Assembly (NCBI GenBank): GCA_030141605.1
Contig: JAQGDQ010000014.1
Span: 889,001 to 953,000 of the forward strand
Direction of reading: 5' to 3'
Origin: Tubiluchus corallicola
Taxonomy: Eukaryota; Priapulida; Priapulimorpha; Priapulimorphida; Tubiluchidae
Length of the DNA stretch: 64,000 bases
In this document: positions 1-49,700 of the stretch, piece by piece
Layout: every line of letters begins with the position of its first letter
Position numbering within the stretch: the first letter of the stretch is position 1
Notes under the pieces: generated by a model
Seen by the model: only the letters and a program-made list of their open reading frames with translations
Told to the model about the DNA's origin: nothing
The model's database searches: none
Position numbers and translations under genes: made by a program

Positions 1-3000
1 TACGTGTCCCACAGATGTAAGAGATATAGTCCTAGATCTTGAGGTCTGCTGCTTCCGTTTCTAAAAAAATTAAAGGAACACAAATTTTACATATTTGAAA
101 TATGGTTATCAGTTACAAAAACTTCAACAAAAAATTCTACAAAACAAAAAAATCAAGGAACAAGAAAAAAATTTGAAAACAATTACACCTAATTACACCC
201 AAAATTTAGATTGATAACCTGCATTCCACTATTAATAATTACTTGCCTTTTTCTCTATTTTCTTCTCCTTTTTCTTCTGATGCTTACTCTTTACCTGACC
301 TCTAGCTGCTATTTCATCAATTGCATTTTGTGGTGGAGTATCATCTGCATCTGCATGACTGTTCTGCTCTTGTAGCTTTCTTGGCAATATCTTCAATAGT
401 AAATAATATTAAAAAGTATTGTCTACTTTATATATCAAGTAACTAGTGATGCTCCATATTTTTGATGAATAGCAAATACAAGTAACCATCACACATGTTC
501 ATAAAAGTATCTACAAAGGCAGGAAGAAAATACCGACAAACCTATAAGAATTCTCCAATGGATCTCTATGCTTTATAAACTTTAGCTGTTTTGCGCTAAT
601 AGATTAAGATATTCTATATATTACCATTTGCAGGCTCTACAGAAAGGGTGTAGAGGGAGAATGTATATACATACAAATAATACAAATATGGCTGAGACAT
701 CTCTACTGGTTCAGTAGCTCATCTAAGAGAGATATCTTTGATAGTGAGCCAGGCTCTAGTTATACCACAAACATCTCATTAAGTGGCCCAGCATTTGAGT
801 ACTGGACTCTGGTTTGCCATCTACCAAAGTGTATAAAAAGAGTAAAAAAACTTTATAAAACTTTCACTGAAAGTGACTGTACAATTCATTTCAATCCATT
901 TTCACTTTATTTATTCAGTGCCAGTAAAATAATTAGTAAAAAGGATTATATTTATTGCAAGCTGTTAGAAACTGCTACAATTGCATTTTTAGAAACTGGC
1001 TGGCAAATAATCATAATTATCCAACTCACTTAATTAGTATAAAAAAACAGGATTCTAAAATATATAAAGAATCACAGTGTACGATGATTTCTTTTAATTT
1101 TTATGTTATTTTTATTGTCTTTTTCAGGACATAAGATGGATTTTGTTATTCATCTAGCAATATGTCTCTCACTGTCTCACTCCATGTAACAAGATAATCT
1201 CTGTCAATAAACTACTACTGCTTCTATTACTGCTACTGCTACTGCTACTACTACTATGCTTATATAGTTACCCGTATGTGGTGATCCACAATGTCTTTCA
1301 ATCATCAATGTTTGGCACTTTCTACTTCCAGCATATTTTTTAGGGTTTGCATAGTGTCACTAATTCAAACACAGCTCAAAGTAAACGCAAAAAACAATTA
1401 ACAAAAAAGTAAACCTTCAAATAACATGCTGAAAACTCACTTGCTTTGACATTGTCATTTTCGTAAATGCCTGCCCTGGTCGCTGAGGTTTCTCTTCTGT
1501 GATTGGCAACGAAATGTCCAAGAAGTTTTCAAAGACTAGCGACGGTTCTTTGCATTCTTCACACAACACAGTACTAACCAGCTGTCCCCCAAACATGCTA
1601 TCCACCCAAGTATTCTGACCATTTTTACCATACGCTGAAATTCAATGTATTAACAGAAATACGAGAACCAACAATTTACATTAATAAATTAGAAACAACA
1701 CAACGTGTCGATAAGTAAAACTGAAATGTACTGAATTAAGGCGCTCGCAACTCACATCAGTGTACATCAGATGGTCACTTAAAATAAAAAGTGCACTAAT
1801 TTATGTTATGTGAATTTGAGCTACCAGCACAAATAGAACACGTCAGCTGAGGATTTTACAAACTACTCAAATATAGACTGTCTACTATACATATAAATGT
1901 TACAATTCTCTGACCAATCTTACATTTACTTGCTTAGCCTTGACTTGTGCTCTGATCTAACATGGGAGAAGCATCTTACAATACTGACCAAGTAAACGAT
2001 AAAAGTGAGATGCCTGTATCATACTGGAAAATAAGTAACTCGTAATCATAATAGCATCATAACTCGATTAATTGACCTTGTTTGGGGTACTGAAACCACA
2101 TGCGAACAGCGCAGCCTGTAACCCTAACCAGTTTGAGAAATTAAAAATTGTAAAGTGGTCCGATTTGGAGATAACCATACTATAACTATTTCACCAAATA
2201 CCTGTTACTACAACATTCTTTAGTTATGACTTTCCATGAAAAACAGTCACAGAATCTCTCACATGATTGCTTCCTAAATAAATCAAGTTAGCCAGGGGTA
2301 CTTCTAATCTGTTACTTCTCATATTTTTACCATGGAACTTTTTTAATACAGAAAAGGTGCTTATAAATCCAATTTTATTCGGCTTCTTAAATGCAGAATT
2401 CTTTTAAGGTAGCCTTAGGTTGACTATGCAATGCTATGCAAATGAGAGCAACTGAAGACTTAGTAACTGGCTGAAACTGGCGGCATACGGCACGCTGCTA
2501 GTTCCGAGTATATCCAGTTGCAACTTGCTTGAACTTGTATCTTCATAGTTGCTGGAAATCATTCGCAGTCGACCATAGCGTATCTACGATTGTTTCCCGT
2601 CATTTGAGGCAAATTGCATAGTATCGCAGGTCTTCCTAAGCTTGGCTTAACAAAACATTATTTTCATGTTAACTGCTTCACTACTTGCTTTAACAAGAAC
2701 ATCAACACTCAACAAAAACCTCATATTATTAAAATGAAGAAATTTTCTGAACATATTCATATTTTTCACTTTTAAACTATAGCTAGTGATGGTCAATTTT
2801 GAAATTTTGAAATTTGATTATAATCCTGTTCTTGAAATTTCATATCAGAATTAATCTTTTGCTAATTTTTTAGCAATATTTTCAAAACATTGCAGCACTG
2901 AAATATAGACTATAAACGTCTTCATGGCTTTTCTCGCTATATGCCATTTTCGTACTCGCAAACTATTTTTATTGAAATGCACATTTGTTAACTACTTAAT

Positions 3001-6000
3001 GACTACATCACTACACACGTCAAGAACTTAAAGCCCCAAATTTGCTACACTTTAGTTTGCAATTATGTACACTGTGTAAGGTCAGAAATATGAAGGAAAA
3101 ATGCAAGGATTTCGTTTTTTTCTGGTAAAACACTGCATCTTAGTGCATAACACATATTTTTTGCTGTCTATTAATCTTGATTAATCTTGATTAATTGAAT
3201 TACTGTTCAATCGCCAATTGTATCGATTTGCACATGGTTGTAATTTTGATGTAGTCGATTAATCACCCATCATTTACTGTAGCTACCACCCTGAGCGATC
3301 ATTGGCTTTGCTTATAAAGCAGTTTCTATAAAAAATACAATCAGTAACATGATGTTACATGATGTTAATAATCATCAACATCACAATACCTTTAACCTTG
3401 CGCTTGGTATTCTCGTCAACCTTTTTAGGATTGATATTCTCCGGAAGATGAAAAGCTTTTAGAATCCCGGCTTGATGTCGACGAATTTCTTCAGCCTTCA
3501 TTCCATCTAGTAGGTGGCGCAACAACTCGTGACTGTCTTGCTGTTGAAATCCCTTGAACCTCGGAGCTCTGACGCAATAAAACAAATAATAAAATTCTGT
3601 TACTACAGAATCAGAAAACGGGAAAAAAATGGAAAGAAAAGAAACACAAAACATGACAAAAAATATGAGTGATTTAAAAAATAGCACAGGACATGGCAAG
3701 GTGAAGAAGCCAGTTAGTCATGCAATCGATGCTATCACAGATGCAAAAAGCTCTAAAGATAATATCTTTTGCTAAGCTTAATTTATTATCACAAATACAT
3801 AAACAGCTTAAAAAAAATTCAACACTAGAAAGTTTTCTATAAACTGAAAAAATGAGTCAAATGACGACAAACAAGTAGGTAAGAAAGACACTCTATTGTT
3901 ACATTCAATTTCACAATTAAAATGGGGAAACACAAATTATGGTAATTTATAAATATTTAACATCTGTAGAAATGAAAATCAAAATATAATCCAGGCGAGC
4001 CCTGGCAAGAAGTAGTGGAACATCTTAGTTAACAATTTTTAATCACTGTAAGCATAAGGTAGCGATTGCAGTTGGAAAAGTAAAACTGATTGGCTAAGAT
4101 TGCTACTAAAAGAAAATTACATTCTCAATCTGCACAAAAGAGACCTTTACAAGCTTTTTATATACCTGCTTTTCATCAAATAGTCCGAAATGCATTTCAG
4201 CACAATGCAAGCTGGTATTAGGGACTGCTACAAATACTGAACAGTAATGGTGAGATTTGAACCTTTTTTATACTATTCTGTAAACTGAATCCAGCAGTTA
4301 TTTGCATGACCTGTACTCAATATGGTTGGCTGTAAATATATAATGTTACCAAAAATTCCTCATAATCAAGGCCATGCCTTTATGATGAAACACCGAACAG
4401 GAAACGATGTCTTAGCCAAGTATGAACATGAATGCATCTTTCCTCTACGAAGTAACCAGTCAGAATGAGCTCGGCAAATGAAACCACCCAGAGTGAGAAC
4501 CGAACAAAGTGGTTATCTATTTGCTAACGAGTCTCAGCGTTGCTTAACATTGGTCACCAAGGACCCACCATTATCACTTTAGTATAGCCCACACCTCATC
4601 TAAGTTGCCATGAAGGAAATTTTTTTAAGATGAGGCACTGAATTAAAAGAGGCATCTCAACCACATTCATATGTAAAGTTTTTTACGCACCTTCCTTCAA
4701 AGAGACAAATAGATGAAACCCATGTGGCAAATAAAATCATCTAGAAGTGATTTACTGCCAGTCATCCATCAATTTAATAACCTGTCTCAGTGCTGCTTGA
4801 CTACCAAAATCAAGCACACACTATGTCAATTTGGCTATTTCTTTTCCCTCCACGATAATCATGTTAGTCCGTTTTGAAAAGCTGACCACCTTTGTCAATC
4901 ATCAAAATCCTTACATTTTTGAAACTATGCAGTTCTTGAAGAACAATTATAAGCATTAGGATCAGAATTTTTTTCCGCATTAAGAAAAAAACAAAGTTAA
5001 AAATTAAACAACAATAAAAAAGCCAAAGATGGCTTCCTTGCACTTGACCACTAATGGCCAGCAATGGAGAAATGCATACACAGGTCCGCTTCAGACTATC
5101 CTGCACTCACTAATCTAGATTAGCTTTCAAATTTTTTAAAACAAAATAGCTTACTCATGAAGTTACGCTGTATGACCTGAGTGCTTGAAACACTTAGAAA
5201 AAAATCTAATAACAAAAACTTGCAATGGAGTTAACATCATGCATGTGCACATACTCTTTTTCTTACAATTACACTTTTCAACACTTACTTCTTACAAATT
5301 TGTCCAAAAAGTGCATTTGGAGAAAGAGTACTGCTCTTGCCAGCTGAATGCATGTCCCGTAAAAATGCTAACAATGCCTGGGTGAGAGCGCCAGATTCTG
5401 GAACTGAAACTTGCAGTGGCTCCTGCAATTTTTTGAACAAAAACACCAATTAAGAACATTTTGAAATGGCAGTACTCACAATCAGTACTACAATTATCGC
5501 ATCATCAAAGCGATGTGATCTTAAGAACCTAAAACAATTCATTTATGCAATCAAGACAACAGAAAACTAAACCACACGCACCCGGTATCATCAGGAAGAA
5601 CCTGGATTCGCATTTCAACCACTTCTCCTTAACGCCCAGACCCAGACAAGAGCGGCCATTTGCACAGCTTTATAATATAACAGAGCCTCATGTTAAGGTT
5701 TTCTAAATCTAACCACTTCATTGAATAAATGACATCACATTAAGGCAACATCAGGGCAATAATAATACAATCTAGTGTGTTCTGCAATACCTATATGCTG
5801 ATCTCTTTAGAAGTAATCGAGCTATGGATTTTTCAAACAAGTCAAAGCATAAATAAATAACAAAAAAGAAATCGTGTGATATGGTGCCATTCACTTATCG
5901 GAAAAACGGGTCGTCAATACTTACTAGTGGAAACTCATCTTTATCAGAATCACTGCTGGAGGAAAGAGAAGAGAAACCGTACTTCTCTGTTGACTGGCGT

Positions 6001-27979: not shown

Positions 27980-30900
27980 ATGGACCGACTCCCTGGTGAT
28001 CTTCTGCTAAACTTGGAACAACTGCAGATTGATAATGATGAAGAGTTACCAGATGCATCAGCACTTTCCACTTCGCTCATTGTAACGGGTGCCGATCTAT
28101 CAGTGTTTGATGATATACATGCACGGGTGAGTAAGAAATTTCTATTCTCCTACTTCCTGTTTTTAAGATACCAAGTAAGCCATAATATACTTGCTGCTGT
28201 TGAGCACTGTCGTTTCATGAATCTCTGGTAAATGAAAGTAAATCTACCATAATATAGTCGACAGTGGACTTTAGGATCACACAGGACCAAATTACGCTCA
28301 GTTCTAGCAATTCAAAACAATTTTTTCATGATCACCTTGATGATTTGATCGATTTCGTCAATGAACTAATGTCATTTAAGTTAGTCTCACACTACACATT
28401 TTAAACTATAGACTTAATCATTCTGTCTATCGCTAACTCAAGAACTACTACTGAACACTTTTATCGGGTGTGTTATCTAATATTTAAATATACAGTGTTT
28501 AATAATGGTCATGAGGAATGTTACTATTGAGTTTTCCCTTTTCTTGCTATTATAATCTGGAACTATATTGCTTTTGGTGCTTCTAAAGATGTAGATGAGA
28601 TCTCTCAATGGCTTAAAGAAAAAGTCAGAAGTCAAACAGTCTTTCATGAATTTCAATATACAATTAAAAATACTGAAATTTCAGCATAATATATTCACTG
28701 AAAAAGCCTTGCTTGAAACAACAAAAGAAAGCTGTAATCATTCGTACTATGAGTGAGTAAGTTTAGAAATAAAGGTTAAGCAAATGCCAGGGTGAGTCTC
28801 CTTTCATTTCCTTTGACTGAGGTCCTGAGTGACTTTTGACAATGTATAACTGGGAAATATAACATAGCAACCAAGCTGTTCAACTTTTGCAACTGCCTGA
28901 CTTAATCTCACTTGTTTTGAAATTCTCAAACCAGTCCATTGTCCATCATTGTATTAATATTGTAATCTTGTTATTGTGATGGTGAAAAGCCATTTACTTT
29001 CACCCCCCCCCCCCTACCTCTACATTGTAACGGTCGTTTCATTACAAAACCACAGTGTGTGGGCATTAAATACCAGTTGTAAAAGCACCTGTAAGTAACG
29101 GTTCCATGGTCCACTAACAGTGCAGACAGGTGTGTTTACCATTTCAGTACCTATTCCGCAACCCAGAACGAGAAATGTAGGACAAGTATGCTAGCAAGTT
29201 TAACATTCATTTCTGGGCAAACTCTGGTATTTCTACGGGAATATTAATGACCAGTGCTATCAACGCCATTGCTGACAATTCAATATCTTAAGCTAATTGA
29301 AACTAATTATTGTTTTTTAGCACCTCTTTGAAGATAAATTCCGTCAATTTGATCCAGATGCTGAATTCCACTATTTAAAAAGCTTTCGCCGTGCGAGGAT
29401 AAACTTTTCCTCGCCAGATCGTGCTGAATATGCAAAAATGGATATGCACAACTCAGAGATCTGTGGCAAAGCTATCAAATGTTTTTTTGCTCAGGTATGT
29501 GTCTGTATTGATTTTATGTTACTCTTTAAAGTTTGACAATTTGCTCACACCAAGAATTTGCCTAGTTAATAGGTCCTGCTGATTCTGCCCACTGTTATAA
29601 TCTTTCCATTCTAAAAAAATTACTGTCCATGTCTTTGTCTGTCTTTGTTCATCTTCATTTCATAATAATTAGTTGTTGTAGTTCCAAAACATGTATCATA
29701 CTTTTAGCTTGTTAGAGTTTACTTGGTATGTACATCCTATATCGTCTGGTTTCAAAATACCTGGTTTTTGATTAATCTGACAAGTTGGTGTTCAATTTGA
29801 CCAAATTTCTATGCAATAATGGGTACAAAACATTATATGATAATTTTGTCTACTATTATACCAACAACTGAAATGGGCTGAAAAAGTGATAAAAAGTGAT
29901 TTGTGCCAATTAATCCTCATTCGGTAATCGCGATTTGAATAATATTACTGAAATTCATAGTTATCAACCTTTATCTATGAACAACTTTGCAGCACTATCC
30001 CAGATTTTGATAAAACTGGACACATTTCTCATTTCTTATAGAACAGAATGTCAAGTTGACATCAGGCAAAAACAGGCAGTTGTGACCAGTAATTATGAAA
30101 TATTGGCAACCAATTGTGTTTCTAGGTCCTTGTCCCAGTACAGCCATTTATACACCCTGCTACTGAGTGCTTGATACCAGCTTGCAATGTTCCAGCTATA
30201 TACAAAGCTCAAAAAAATGTTGATATAGTTCTGCAGTCATTACATTTTTCTTGTTTTATATTCTTTGAATATCTTGTATACTTTTGTTTTGTTTATGTGC
30301 AACATGTCTGTTCTTCAGTAAATTTTGTTGTTGTTTTTAATTATTTTTTATTTCCTATTCAAGGGATGGAACTAATTTTTATATACATTTTTATCAGTAG
30401 TAGCATTTGTATTTTTACATAAATATATTTTTTAAAGAAACACCTGAACCGTTTGGGTGTCACTATAACTATACATCTATAAGTCTACTCTTTCCCATGT
30501 AGGACTCACTTTTATTTTTCATTTTTCAGCCAATTAAAATGAAATGCAACTACAGTGGCCTTTTAGAGCCGCCTCCTGTAGAAAAGCAATTCCTCATTTC
30601 TCCACCTGCATCGCCTCCCGTCGGATGGGAACAGATGCAAGAAAATCGTCCTATAATCAACTATGAGTTGGTGTCAGCATTAGCACATCTGACTCCAGGT
30701 ATGTAACAAACTACGAGTTGTTGTCAGCATTAGCACATCTGACTCCTGGTATGTAACAAACTACGAGTTGTTGTCAGCATTAGCACATCTGACTCCTGGT
30801 ATGTAGCAAACTACGAGTTGTTGTCAGCATTAGCACATCTGACTCCAGGTATGTAACAAACTACGAGGTTGTGTCAGCATTAGCACATTTGACTCCAGGT

Positions 30901-32491
30901 ATGTAATAAACTGCAAGTTGGTGTCAGCATTAACACATTTGACTCCAGGTATGTAATAAACTACGAGTTGATATCAGCATTAGCACATCTGACTCCAGGT
31001 ATGTAACAAACTACGAGTTGTTGTCAGCATTAGCACATCTGACTCCTGGTATGTAACAAACTACGAGTTGTTGTCAGCATTAGCACATCTGACTCCAGGT
31101 ATGTAACAAACTACGAGGTTGTGTCAGCATTAGCACATTTGACTCCAGGTATGTAATAAACTGCAAGTTGGTGTCAGCATTAGCACATTTGATTCCAGGT
31201 ATGTAATAAACTACGAGTTGATATCAGCATTAGCACATTTGACTCCAGGTATGTAATAAACTATGAGTTGTTGTCAGCATTAGCCCATTTGGCTCCAGGT
31301 ATGTAACAAACTACGAGTTGTTGTCAGCATTAGCACATCTGACTCCAGGTATGTAATAAACTATGAGTTGTTGTCAGCATTGGCACATCTGACTCCAGGT
31401 ATGTAACAAACTACGAGTTGTTGTCAGCATTAGCACATCTGACTCCAGGTATGTAACAAACTACGAGTTGGTGTCAGCATTAACACATTTGACTCCAGGT
31501 ATGTAATAAACTACGAGTTGATGTCAGCATTAGCACATTTGACTCCAGGTATGTAATAAACTATGAGCTGGTGTCAGCATTAGCACATTTGACTCCAGGT
31601 ATGTAATAACTATGAGTTGGTGTCAGCATTAGCACATTTGACTCCAGACATGTAATAAACTACGAGTTGGTATCAGCATTAGCACATTTGACTCCAGGTA
31701 TGTAATAACTATGAGTTGGTGTCAGCATTAGCCCATTTGGCTCCAGGTATGTAATAAACTACGAGTTGGTGTCAGCATTAGCACATTTGACTCCAGGTAC
31801 GTAATAAACTACAAGTTGGTGTCAGCATTAGCATATTTGACTCCAGGTATGTAAAAAAAACGTGTGAGGAGGCTCTGTCTGTTTAGTTTTTTTTGCATTG
31901 TATTGTAAAATTGTAGTGCAAATCATCATAAATTATTATAATGTATTATAATAAAGCTGGTATTAGCTTCAACACACTTGACCTTAGGTATGTAATAAGT
32001 AACGAGCTGGTATCAGTTTTAGAGCTCTTAATGCCAGGTATGTAATAAACTATGGTATCACTTATATGCCTACACACTTAGCTCCAAGTACATAATAATC
32101 TACAAGTTAGTGTTAGCTTTCATACACTTAGATCCAGACAATTTAATCGACTACAAACTAGTATCAACTTTAGCACACTCAACTCATAGTTTGTAGTAAA
32201 CAGTGAGCTGGTATCAACACTAGCACATACAATTTTAAGACGTGCTTAGAATGATACAGGCTTATATGGTTTGCAGGTTTGTAAAGCATTTGCACATGTT
32301 TGGCAGGGTTACAATGTAATCTTTTTTTATTAAGTATTTTGATTTTTATATTTTCTTTTGTCCTTTTAGGAGAAATAGAGGTTCATCCTCCAAGTGATCA
32401 GCATCCTGCAATAGTGGTGCACGTGTGTGAAGATCTCTTTCAAGGTCCACGACCCCGAATAGTACAAACTCGCTGTCCTGAACGTGACTGA
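27980..32491 (+). CDS. RCAN: Regulator of calcineurin (calcipressin)
   Basis: Cytosolic protein that binds and tunes the phosphatase calcineurin. Exons: 27980-28126, 29321-29494, 30530-30698, 32370-32491; phases agree, giving 203 aa, near the 197 aa of short human RCAN1. Order of parts: acidic N-terminus; RRM-like fold (about residues 50-107) with SFRRARINFSS; the hallmark FLISPPASPPVGW (128-140), whose serines are phosphorylation sites in the family; VVHVCED; and a C-terminal PRIVQTRCPERD matching the PxIxIT-like/TxxP calcineurin-docking tail (human PKIIQTRRPE). ATG at 27980 was chosen; an in-frame ATG at 27971 is also possible. Intron 3 begins with a large tandem array built from the end of exon 3. 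Reading through the normal exon 3 donor meets a TAA two codons on, so donor choice decides whether the docking tail is made. Confidence 0.93.
28989..29017 (+). repeat. Poly-C tract in RCAN intron 1
   Basis: Run of about 12 C within intron 1, unusual in this AT-rich DNA; no further function seen. Confidence 0.7.
30661..31858 (+). repeat. 50-bp tandem array (24 units) duplicating RCAN exon 3 end plus its 5' splice site
   Basis: Units begin at 30661, 30711 and so on every 50 bp to 31561, then 31610, 31660, 31709, 31759 and 31809. Each has 38 bp matching the last 38 coding bases of exon 3, then GTATGTAAC/TAAA. Unit 1 is the real exon end and donor. Nearly all downstream units keep the AG or TG followed by GTATGT; the unit from 31660 is preceded by GACATG in place of GGTATG. 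A 250-bp higher-order period is visible: the variants CTACGAGGTT, CTGCAAGTTG and GATATCAGC recur at 30861/30911/30961 and 31111/31161/31211. Confidence 0.95.
31945..32232 (+). repeat. Degenerate outer part of the RCAN 50-bp array
   Basis: About six diverged units follow the main array after an 85-bp gap. They still show GAGCTGGTATCA, TTAGCACAC and AGGTATGTAATAA in order at about 50-bp spacing. They are far more diverged than the units near the exon, so they are probably older. Confidence 0.7.
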
Positions 32492-38659: not shown

Positions 38660-41600
38660 TCAGTTTGTTTCCATTGGTAAAGAGGTTCCACTATTACGTG
38701 CAACTACACCATTTGCGCATTCTGTTGGGTTATCCAGTTTGTTTACTGCTTCTGCAGTAAACTCTTTACATGGCATAGTCCGATTTTCCCGTGGATCCAA
38801 GTGGCTTCCTCTGTCAGTAAGTTCGTTTTGTACAGCGTCTCTTTCGCCACTCACTTCCAACAATGAGTTTGATAGTACGTCGCAGTTTGATTTCTTCCGA
38901 ACAGCATTGAGAATGCGACGCTTAACACTCACAGGTTCTAACACCACATCAGTCGTTTCTTCAGGTGTAGCAGCCCTAGCACTTTGCACAGTGGTCCGTT
39001 GCTGTTCAAGCGCGAAAGATTCTAAGAAATTGCTGTTATCAATTGGCTCACCTTCAACAAATTCATTAGTAATGCTTGTGTCAGTGTTGTGAAGATGCTT
39101 AGATTCTACGGGATACTCGGCAGGTACAGGAGTCCGGTAATCATTGGTCTCAGTTGCAGAATTACTATGCTGCAGTGTTGCTCCATCTTCTGAATTTTGC
39201 ACTAAATCAAAACATTTCAGTGGAGATTTTGTAGTTGTCCGTAGTTCAAATGACGGCGACCCACTCTTTCGTGATGGCCCCAACAGAGGGGAACGCCTTG
39301 AAGTCTGTTGAATTATTACAGTCTGTTGATTACTACTTGATATCTGTTCCTCCAGCACTGGAGACACGTGTGCTAAATGGTGCTCCACGAATGCTGGCGA
39401 CAATCTTGCAACCTGATGCCCAAAATTTAAGGACTGGTTTGAAGTTTGTGCACAATTTTCTGGATCTGTCGAGCTCACCTTTGTTTCAATAGTCTGCAGA
39501 TTCTGGGTTGAAATATTTGCACACACATCTTCAACATTTTCAGACATTCCAGTATGGGAGTTGAGGCTTGATGATGCCTCCATTTTTACTGAGGTGGCTG
39601 GCAGCACTTCTTCGTGAGACACATTTGCGTTCTTATTGCTGCCACTATCATCAATATTTAATCCACCAACATCTCCAGTCACTACGTTTTCTGTTTCCCC
39701 AACTGTCAATGGTTTCAACACAGGCAGAGGGGATGTTCGTAAACCCTGTGGGGTCCAGAAACTGCTTTCACGATCAATGACATTAGTCGTTACATTTTCA
39801 GACACATTGTCTGCTCTTAAATTAGCATCAAAATTATTTTGGTGTTTATGATCACTATCACCTGAACTTTCCATTTTCATATTTATTTCATGTTTGACAG
39901 CAAAGTTACCTACAACATTAATACTATCCAATTCTTTTTGTAGTTCCAGTTTTTCAGCCTGTGTCCTACCAAGTTGCTCTTGCACTTCTTGAAGCTGTTG
40001 TTTGAAGAAATAGATTGTACTCTGCATTCCTTCAACATCTTCATCCAACTCCAAAAGAAACTCGTCTAATTCTGAAAAAAAATAAAATGTTTACTAGCAG
40101 TTTATCTCAGGTTTTCTACCACTTAACGTTTTTCACATTCAGAAAGTCCATCTGACAAACCTTGTTGGCTTTTCTTCATTTCCTCACTGAAATTTTTCTG
40201 CAATGCCAAGTCTCCCTCTAGTTTAGCAATACGCCCAGAAGATATCTGTTTGCCTAGTTCTTCATTCTCCTGATACAAAAGTCTGCACTTTGCCATCAAA
40301 CGTTTTCCAGTTTGACTACACAAAAGTAAAAAATGCATACAAATGACATATCAATACATTTCTAATTTTTCTACATTAACATAGTCAATAAGCACAATAC
40401 TAGTTGGTATTAGTGACACAGTGCAAACTTTTATAAGCATTTTGCAAGATAGCAGATGAACAGCATAATTAATAGAATACAATAGATCAAAACAAGTATC
40501 GTTAATTATGGTTAATTTCCTTCTTGGGTTACCCCTGCTTATACAAATAAGTTTTGTTTTTATTGCATCTTATAATATAAATAGGCTAGTAACTCAAGGT
40601 TCCTTGCATATAATCTCCATTGTTTACACCTGTTTTCACCACTTCTTTTGTACAGGCAAAGCAACCCGGAAAAGCAAAGTAACCACAATTCATGGTGTGT
40701 AAACAAGCTGTCTTAGGCTTACTACATAACATTAACTTTCTTGGATTACCTGTCAGGTGTGAATTTCCAAGCACTAAGTTCACCCTGGGCTTCTTCGTAT
40801 TTAGTTTTAAAGTTATCTGATTGTTTCTTCAACTGCTTAAATAGCAGGTTGACAGCAGGATCTAATAACATGGCACGCAACTGTGCTAAGCTTGGTGTTT
40901 GTCCTTGCTTCAGATCCTGAATTTGGTTCTGTTGACAAAATAACTCAATTTAGTAAACAAGTTAAAAGTCTAATGAATAATACGTATAAACGGTATTCTC
41001 ATTGTTTCAGTTTCGATTATAATTTATGCAATTAGGCTGTCATTAAGTTTTTCGTACAGCTCAAGATAGCTCGAACCTACATCATACTGTTTATTCCCCA
41101 TATCTATGTTTTAAGGAAGAATCTTCAATGTAGTTTCTAAAGTAACTGTAAGTTAAAGTAATGCTATGACATCTTAACTGCTCAGGTAAACTGGACAAAC
41201 CACACGTACACTATATATGCAACAGCTGTTAATTTCTTAGTATCATAATTTACGTACAGCATATTCTTGCAGTTCTTGTTCCTTAGTTGTTAGTCTCATA
41301 ACGAGAACATTTTCTCGACGAGTTGCTTCAATTTGCTGTTGCTTCAACTTTTCCTCAGATTCTCGCAGCCCTGTCAACTCTTCACCTTAAAATATTGCAA
41401 ATGTTTCAGTTAATGTTGACCCAATCTCAAATTGGCAAACTTCTTTAAATAAAAACATTTTTAATAATTTGTTCAATACTGATAGTAAGCAAATATCTAC
41501 TTGCCAATGTTGTGATAGCCTTAACTCGTCTTTCTCTCTCTCTCTCTTTCCCATATTGTTAAAAAATTGTATACGTCTTGTATTATCAAGAAGTATGCGC

Positions 41601-48299: not shown

Positions 48300-49700
48300 A
48301 TGTATGGTTTGGAAGATTGAAAAGTGTGGGTACAACCAGATTCTGAACAAGTAGATGCGCAATGTGGTAGCAGTTGTTTAGAACAAATCCTTGCTTTGAT
48401 TTATTAATCGGTAGTGCCAAAAAAGCTAATCGAAAACTGTATATACTTTTTTGTTGACTTTCAAAAAGTGCATGACAACGTTAAAAGAGGTGTTCTAATT
48501 AAAGTACTAAAACACTACGGTTGTGGCAAATGATTGAAACCACGATGGCAAAACGTATGTGCAATGTATAACTCCCAATATTTTAGGAAGCGAAACTTTT
48601 TACTCAAATTGTGGCGTGAAATAGGATCATGCAGTTCATGTACCCTTTTTTTGTATTTACCTAAATCCGCTAGTGCGTGCGTTAAAAGGTCTAGGGTAAT
48701 GTGGTTGGTCAGGTCACTTGCATGGGCTCCTGTTTACGGACGGCACAGCTATATTGCCTCTACTAGTAGGCAAAACAGCGAAAACAAATTAGATACAATA
48801 ATAAATTTTTGTTCAGAATACGGGATAAATATAAATGAATTAAAAACTCAGTTTAAGGTAATAAATGCTGACAGTGTTTTTGTTCAGAATACGGGATAAA
48901 TATAAATGAATTAAAAACTCAGTTTAAGGTAATAAATGCTGACAGTGTTTTTGTTCAGAATACGGCATGAACATAAATGAATTAAAAACTCAGTTTATGG
49001 TAATAAATGCTGACAGTGTGGACAAACAACCTTTGGTAATTAATGACCTTAACATCAAACACACTCGGACGTATATTTATTTGGGGGATGTGATTACAAC
49101 TGATGCTTACAAGATGAGCTCTGTAATTGCAAATTACTTGGAGGTCTAGCAGTCCAATGTGCTTAAGTTTCGCGCATTCATAAATAAAAATGAAGATTAC
49201 CCTTTTTGGGTAGATTACCCTGTATCAATCTGTATCATATAGATTAGTTAGCTAGAGAGCGCAAAAAAATTATTGATACAGTTAGAGCTAGTGCCTCATC
49301 AAAGAGGATGATACATAAACAATTAAATACCTCCCTAATATAAACTGTGATTCTATGCAATACTGTCGAAAAATTTCGTATTGCAGTCACATGAATGAGA
49401 CTCCAGTCTCATTAATTAAAATTTGAGACAGCTAGATGGAGTCGCCAACCGGTTGAAAACAGACTGTGTGAATATAGTGCTGTCCAAACTGAAAAGCATG
49501 TTTTAACCACTTGCAAGAAACCGAAAATCTTAGAAATGAGTTCATGAATGTAAATTTTTCTATTATTATTGATGTATTTGAAAATGAACACACATTTGAA
49601 ATTTATTGTCCGGAAATCGCATATATATTTCCCGAAGATAAATTTAATTTTATGTGTCTATAAAATCCCCCTAAATTCTCTAGCATTTTTTCTAATTAAT
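48300..49700 (+). pseudogene. Decayed non-LTR retrotransposon reverse transcriptase
   Basis: Fragments in shifting plus frames match RT blocks in order: LEQILALIY (about 48380), LYILF and VDFQKVHDNVKRGVLIKVL (RT motif A, 48440-48520), HYGCGK, MYNSQYF, then after a deletion TIINFCSEYGININELKTQF (48800-48860) and LNIKHTRTYIYLGDVIT (49050-49100), then KNEDYPFWV. The catalytic FADD box is missing. Stops and frameshifts throughout mean the element is dead. It carries an internal 71-bp tandem triplication. The family cannot be named without a search. Confidence 0.7.
48811..49017 (+). repeat. 71-bp tandem repeat, nearly 3 copies, inside the RT pseudogene
   Basis: GTTCAGAATACGG recurs at 48811, 48882 and 48953. 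Copies 1 and 2 look identical; copy 3 has a few changes. The 71-bp period is not a multiple of three, so the duplication shifts the RT frame. Confidence 0.9.

Follow-up and report, generated by a model that had tools for sequence, protein, structure and literature searches.

The stretch analysed here, referred to below as the window, comprises 64,000 nucleotides of the priapulid Tubiluchus corallicola (assembly GCA_030141605.1, contig JAQGDQ010000014.1, positions 889,001 to 953,000, forward strand) and contains an RCAN gene in which the end of coding exon 3, together with the splice donor behind it, is repeated in tandem. Four exons of the gene are recognised (Table 1), with an intron 2 of 1035 nt and an intron 3 of 1671 nt. 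Exons 2 and 3 match Calcipressin (Pfam PF04847), the match of exon 2 lying at C147:918321-918500, and the four exons joined give an open coding sequence (CDS) of 203 amino acids. The combined product of exons 3 and 4 aligns with human calcipressin-1 (6uuq_B) across the junction (E 3.5e-4), which places the authentic end of exon 3 at 30698. Exon 3 encodes FLISPPASPP; the PAIVVH and TRCP of exon 4 are PxIxIT-like and TxxP-like, respectively, these being motifs named in PMC9206313.

Table 1. Features of the RCAN locus (positions in the window) and other donor arrays with a homology match (locus and contig); a slash within letters marks the exon/intron junction.
Feature	Place	Strand	Details
RCAN exon 1, coding part	27980..28126	+	donor CGG/GTGAGT
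RCAN exon 2	29321..29494	+	donor CAG/GTATGT, the same word as in the array; Pfam PF04847 match
RCAN exon 3, 169 nt	30530..30698	+	ends in phase 1; authentic GT from 30699; Pfam PF04847
Tight 50-bp array, 24.1 copies	30654..31858	+	TRF; first copy is the end of exon 3 itself
Read-through of the authentic junction, GGT ATG TAA	30698..30706	+	stop common to retained and downstream-donor forms
Unit with the donor lost	31648..31653	+	CAG/ACATGT in place of GT; only such unit of 24
Nearly six decayed copies of the 50-bp unit	31941..32228	+	AG/GTATGTAA kept at copy ends 31988 and 32038
RCAN exon 4, last coding exon	32370..32491	+	carries PAIVVH and TRCP
PDCL3-like	L012, C5		donor array at exon end; PDB match across junction, E 1.8e-20
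Citrate synthase	L014, C29		donor array at exon end; match across junction, E 2.3e-55
Dynein heavy chain	L018, C173		donor array at exon end; Pfam, E 2.9e-8
RapGAP	L025, C2211		donor array at exon end; E 1.7e-10; 14 identical donor words, in-frame stop at 96 nt
Helicase C domain, DEAD-box kind	L028, C883		donor array at exon end; E 1e-7
HEATR1-like	L027		one of the 21 arrays; weak match, E 0.015

Tandem Repeats Finder (TRF) run on the window returns a period of 50, 92% matches and a score of 1913 for this array, which spans the exon 3/intron 3 boundary, lies between exons 3 and 4 and contains no N. The sequence-only reading of the locus, which had reported exon end and donor repeated at 50-bp spacing over 30661-31858, is thereby upheld in substance, except that the array begins at 30654 and is followed by decayed copies. 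It had also divided the unit into 38 coding and 12 intronic bases. That coding end and intron start were copied together holds; however, the unit appears better described as 45 exonic bases (30654-30698) followed by five intronic ones (GTATG), because each GTATG is followed by seven bases (TAATAAA or TAACAAA in most units) that are similar to the exon bases 30654-30660 (TAATCAA).

When the units are cut by their donors, CAG/GTATGTAA is identical in 19 of the 24, the authentic donor counted, and the GT is kept in 23. Weaker donors are found in four units, three with CTG/GTATGT (30749, 30799, 31049) and one with GTACGT (31797), and one has no GT. Eighteen downstream units equal the authentic donor at every base from -3 to +8 and share its U1 duplex energy of -9.9 kcal/mol; downstream units 1 and 2 (CTG/GTATGT) reach -6.9 kcal/mol, and downstream unit 3 is a full site. 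The 5' end of U1, ATACTTACCTG, is present in the genome at L009, and at L010 on the other strand, and the array sites are able to pair with it. Within 2.5 kb of exon 3 the RCAN donor word occurs 20 times.

Units 19 and 21 measure 49 bp. Units 2-6 and 7-11 constitute a duplicated block of 250 bp, with identities of 49, 50, 50, 48 and 48 of 50, which points to growth of the array by duplication of several units at once. Beyond a spacer of about 80 bp stand the decayed copies, whose alignment score of 213 compares with maxima of 39 in 200 shuffles and of 30 where up to 300 other positions of the window were tried; a good donor survives at two of their copy ends (Table 1) and is absent at 32088, 32138 and 32188. 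In the 343.5-Mb assembly the array query matches one locus only, as judged from the best candidates scored and with very common words skipped. Within the same limits of the search, a dispersed repeat or transposon was rejected as the origin of the array, because the query matches only the RCAN locus.

Exon 3 ends in phase 1, and a transcript read past its authentic end continues with GGT ATG and a TAA stop (30704-30706), as had been claimed. Since this TAA lies directly after the junction, later donors and intron retention share one stop. In conceptual translation each of the first three downstream donors gives a frame ending in LTPGM and a stop, 165 amino acids in all, with exon 4 lost; the claim that downstream donor use removes exon 4, and PAIVVH and TRCP with it, is thus confirmed for the predicted product. 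The distance from the stop to the junction amounts to 42, 92, 142 nt and up for successive downstream donors. The limit for nonsense-mediated decay (NMD) is 50-55 nt from stop to junction, and all downstream donors but the first exceed it. The downstream sites are intronic donor consensus sequences preceded by an in-frame stop, one of the features of latent 5' splice sites. RNA structure in the array does not go beyond chance (300 nt, z 0.49).

The pattern of variation gives no clear indication that the array donors are under selection. Among the donor columns of the tight array 4 of 9 are variable, compared with 16 of the 41 others (p 1.0), and the decayed copies show mismatches in 11 of 49 donor cells versus 67 of 233 others (p 0.48). 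As to coding constraint in the units, 7 of 17 distinct variants are synonymous where 5.7 would be expected, which is no excess (P 0.31).

An RCAN-like paralog at C1366:68597-69501 (L008) has an exon that ends at the same codon and in the same phase, with a plain CAG/GTAAGT donor. The 50-bp array is absent from the 7 kb read on C1366, and the following exon was not located there. Since the shared exon end occurs without an array, RCAN intron 3 is very probably older than the array. Birth of an intron by AGGT tandem duplication, for which the intron should be absent beforehand, was considered and rejected, no such prior absence being apparent from the C1366 paralog (next exon not located).

The RCAN array is not the only one of its kind in this genome. 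A set of 21 distinct arrays was assembled from RCAN, 12 others among the first 100 rows of the donor-word search described below, and the loci of a stricter list (9 stretches); C613 and C2211 count as one family, C613 starting at a contig end, and one of two places on C1725 is included. In six of the 21, homology supports a coding exon end at the start of the array, namely in RCAN and at the PDCL3-like, citrate synthase, dynein, RapGAP and helicase loci of Table 1. Three of these (RCAN, PDCL3-like and citrate synthase) were read as far as the following exon, and in all three the array lies inside the intron. Of the remaining arrays, besides the HEATR1-like one, three (L013, L020, L029) adjoin open frames only, with no Pfam match at E 0.1, and one has a Kunitz-like exon close by, matched below the Pfam cut-off (E 0.005), at whose donor it does not start. 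At ten of the 21 no recognisable exon was found; L015 and L016, which belong to these ten, contain open frames with no Pfam match.

Reading on past the authentic donor at 11 loci meets an in-frame stop within 4 to 195 nt, and at the ten loci measured besides RCAN the copies of the locus's own donor word range from 2 (citrate synthase) to 39 (PDCL3-like). A search of NCBIfam with four exon peptides gave no match, and the first L012 peptide (28 aa) on its own found no PDB chain at E 1. The initial assignment of L012 to TXNDC9 was overturned once the next exon was joined, the gene then proving PDCL3-like.

Some further observations belong beside these loci. At L011 (C555), positions 2850-3070 hold a repeated CAG/GTGAGT array beside an open frame without a Pfam match, and the same locus has a seemingly cut-short stretch of 18S rRNA adjoining other sequence. 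C1725:49607-49993 and 73651-74037 carry the same 54-bp donor-bearing family in opposite orientation. In the window itself, three 71-bp tandem copies at 48806-49019 overlap an open frame (48534-48899) that looks like a putative reverse-transcriptase fragment. Two further open frames of the window, 38660-40090 and 3355-3717 (minus strand), bear a resemblance to WTAP and USP16/USP45.

Across the assembly, triples of CAGGTRWGT at 29-59 bp give 776 overlapping matches versus 64 for the reversed control word, the single words numbering 14,589 and 6,828; these counts are rough, because the donor total is swollen by words standing inside arrays and the control does not match the donor word in where it falls within genes. 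The full list of 64 control triples covers 15 contigs, three of which look like one family, and the first 100 of the 776 donor triples lie in 13 contigs, C5 to C265. Extrapolation from these 100, assuming that C1-C265 make up 11.3% of the genome (share by contig number), leads to about 100 donor arrays in the whole assembly and to donor words standing in such arrays 3.6 times as often as control words (Fisher p 0.001). Four arrays with a period of 34-59 bp, at least three copies and 85% identity occur in a sample of ten 9-kb pieces of long contigs, which scales up to about 15,000 arrays in the genome (roughly 4,000 to 39,000, the count being small). From hand estimates, chance would yield about 20 arrays with the donor word (6 to 60) and about 10 with the control, compared with about 100 (extrapolated) and 15 seen. 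With the stricter CAGGTATGT triple, the full list comprises 51 matches, spread over 10 contigs, and the control has 3. As a symmetric control, acceptor arrays show no excess, with 134 triples of TTTTNCAGG versus 124 of its reversed word; however, TTTTNCAGG probably catches fewer real acceptors, so that an asymmetry between donors and acceptors is not proven by this comparison.

Taken together, it is reasonably probable that the RCAN array is a minisatellite which was born on a splice donor and is tolerated there, with its downstream donors mostly latent. A tandem duplication would have taken in the final 45 nt of exon 3 together with the 5 nt that open intron 3; unequal exchange or slippage, the five-unit block included, may then have raised the array to 24 fairly clean copies, while older copies decayed at its far end. 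We infer this order of events from the anatomy described above. Because each unit copies both the exon end and the donor, the gene retains both when units are added or lost, and the array can persist; it would be nearly neutral. The authentic donor is the most upstream one and the nearest to the 3' splice site of exon 3, and exon definition should select it in the RNA. The downstream donors are then probably latent for the most part, with perhaps slight leakage from the nearest ones into the same 165-aa truncated frame. This kind of array is apparently recurrent in the genome, and, since the same anatomy is present at the PDCL3-like, citrate synthase, dynein heavy chain, RapGAP and helicase genes, a purpose specific to RCAN is not needed.

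Published data on donor choice are in part consistent with this explanation. For near-equal human donors, the available text of PMC9225289 gives the upstream site as favoured in 60% of events and describes an upstream preference with long introns. RCAN introns 2 and 3 have the length at which the exon-centric rule would prefer the first donor, a prediction of moderate strength. According to the sections available of PMC3510495, cells grown normally mostly seem not to use intronic donor-like sites that lie behind an in-frame stop.

Four points weigh against the array being tolerated and largely latent. When single cells of the tight array are counted, departures from the majority number 6 of 207 at donor positions and 59 of 943 elsewhere (p 0.066), which leans towards preservation of the donors, although such cells are inherited copies counted repeatedly and not independent events. 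The accessible part of PMC9225289 also records a downstream preference before donor strengths are equalised. In human IFI6, two downstream repeat units serve as donors in transcripts, as reported in the available part of PMC4526556, so leakage at RCAN could be substantial. Finally, donor arrays seem commoner than a composition-matched word predicts, an excess that neutrality without a hotspot leaves unexplained.

The alternative that survives best is a constitutive, unregulated leak of the IFI6 type, in which the first one to few downstream donors enter a minor share of transcripts that are degraded or yield a weak RCAN. Besides the IFI6 transcripts themselves, the full donor of downstream unit 3 speaks for it, downstream units 1 and 2 being the weaker sites. 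The extra IFI6 units, however, are said to be in frame, whereas use of those in RCAN leads to a stop and would hence be costly. As an explanation in its own right the leak is somewhat unlikely, yet it overlaps with the tolerated minisatellite, which itself allows slight leakage, so the likelihoods assigned to the two do not add up to certainty.

Another proposal, already put forward in outline in the sequence-only reading, is that the array acts as a regulated sink of competing donors, binding U1 many times and diverting exon 3 so as to set the ratio of full-length to truncated or NMD-targeted RCAN. Array length, according to that reading, could also vary between individuals. The 18 downstream sites that match the authentic donor in sequence and U1 energy are in accordance with it, and so are the single common stop and the position of all but the first downstream donor beyond the NMD limit. 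A sink is nevertheless difficult to reconcile with donor columns that vary like the others, with decayed copies in which donor cells and the others show mismatches at about the same rate and which keep a good donor at only two ends, and with exon-centric proximity, which favours the authentic site; moreover, like arrays stand in unrelated genes. For RCAN, the sink is regarded as possible but unsupported, and quite improbable.

Very unlikely, in turn, is a module for intronic polyadenylation, in which AATAAA beside the U1 sites would end transcripts early or be silenced by U1 (telescripting). Although 11 AATAAA hexamers occur in 30699-31858 and the units contain GT-rich stretches, the hexamers derive from TAATAAA, which is itself a variant of TAATCAA in the exon, and the U1 sites directly upstream are expected to suppress them. 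An assembly artefact or a wrong copy number, tandem arrays being error-prone in assemblies in general, is the least credible of all, given that the units differ among themselves, that the array is ordered in blocks and borders on old, decayed copies, and that similar arrays are present at several loci.

The claim that such an array is uncommon needs qualifying, as similar arrays recur in the same genome and a human case has been published. Human IFI6 (6-16, G1P3) is said to have, close to where exon 2 ends, 26 repeats of a 12-bp unit, two downstream units being used in frame. This splice-donor minisatellite was reportedly described by Turri, Cuin and Porter in 1995 (NAR 23:1854). Like it, the RCAN minisatellite lies in a transcribed gene, starts at a coding exon end and has units that carry donor-like sites; unlike it, the RCAN units are 50 bp long and mainly exonic in origin, their downstream use leads to a stop, and several genes of one genome bear arrays.

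Other systems resemble the RCAN array in part. As in the latent 5' splice sites of Nevo et al. (2012; PMC3510495, available sections), an intronic donor consensus follows an in-frame stop; those are individual intronic sites, however, whereas RCAN has about two dozen tandem copies of its authentic donor. The intron gain by AGGT tandem duplication set out in the accessible text of PMC4974935 likewise copies splice signals through a boundary-spanning duplication, but RCAN shows no indication of a new intron and its paralog exon ends at the same codon and phase. Internal tandem repeats of human genes, minisatellites with units of about 30 bp in the part available of PMC2812944, also alter the extent of exons and introns; there they lengthen exons or make introns, whereas the RCAN donor copies lie behind the donor. 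The available portion of PMC7058356, on elegans, describes no donor array, and the literature searched contained no genome-wide report of donor minisatellites or of such recurrence. The RCAN array is thus of a known kind, represented by IFI6; new are the 50-bp, mainly exonic unit, the read-through stop and the recurrence across one genome.

This recurrence is a stronger lead than a donor sink at RCAN. Tentatively, and with less than even confidence, the genome may be regarded as repeatedly seeding or keeping minisatellites on active 5' splice sites, with arrays of CAGGTRWGT on the order of 100, a good part of them at coding exon ends and several times above what word frequency and array density would predict. 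Donors would then either attract duplication as hotspots or enjoy protection after it, and an entire group of genes would possess identical competing donors. How the spliceosome chooses among identical donors that differ only by position is an old question, for which these loci are ready-made tests. If donors are indeed hotspots for the birth of minisatellites, this would bear on shifts of exon ends and on the origin of cryptic donors.

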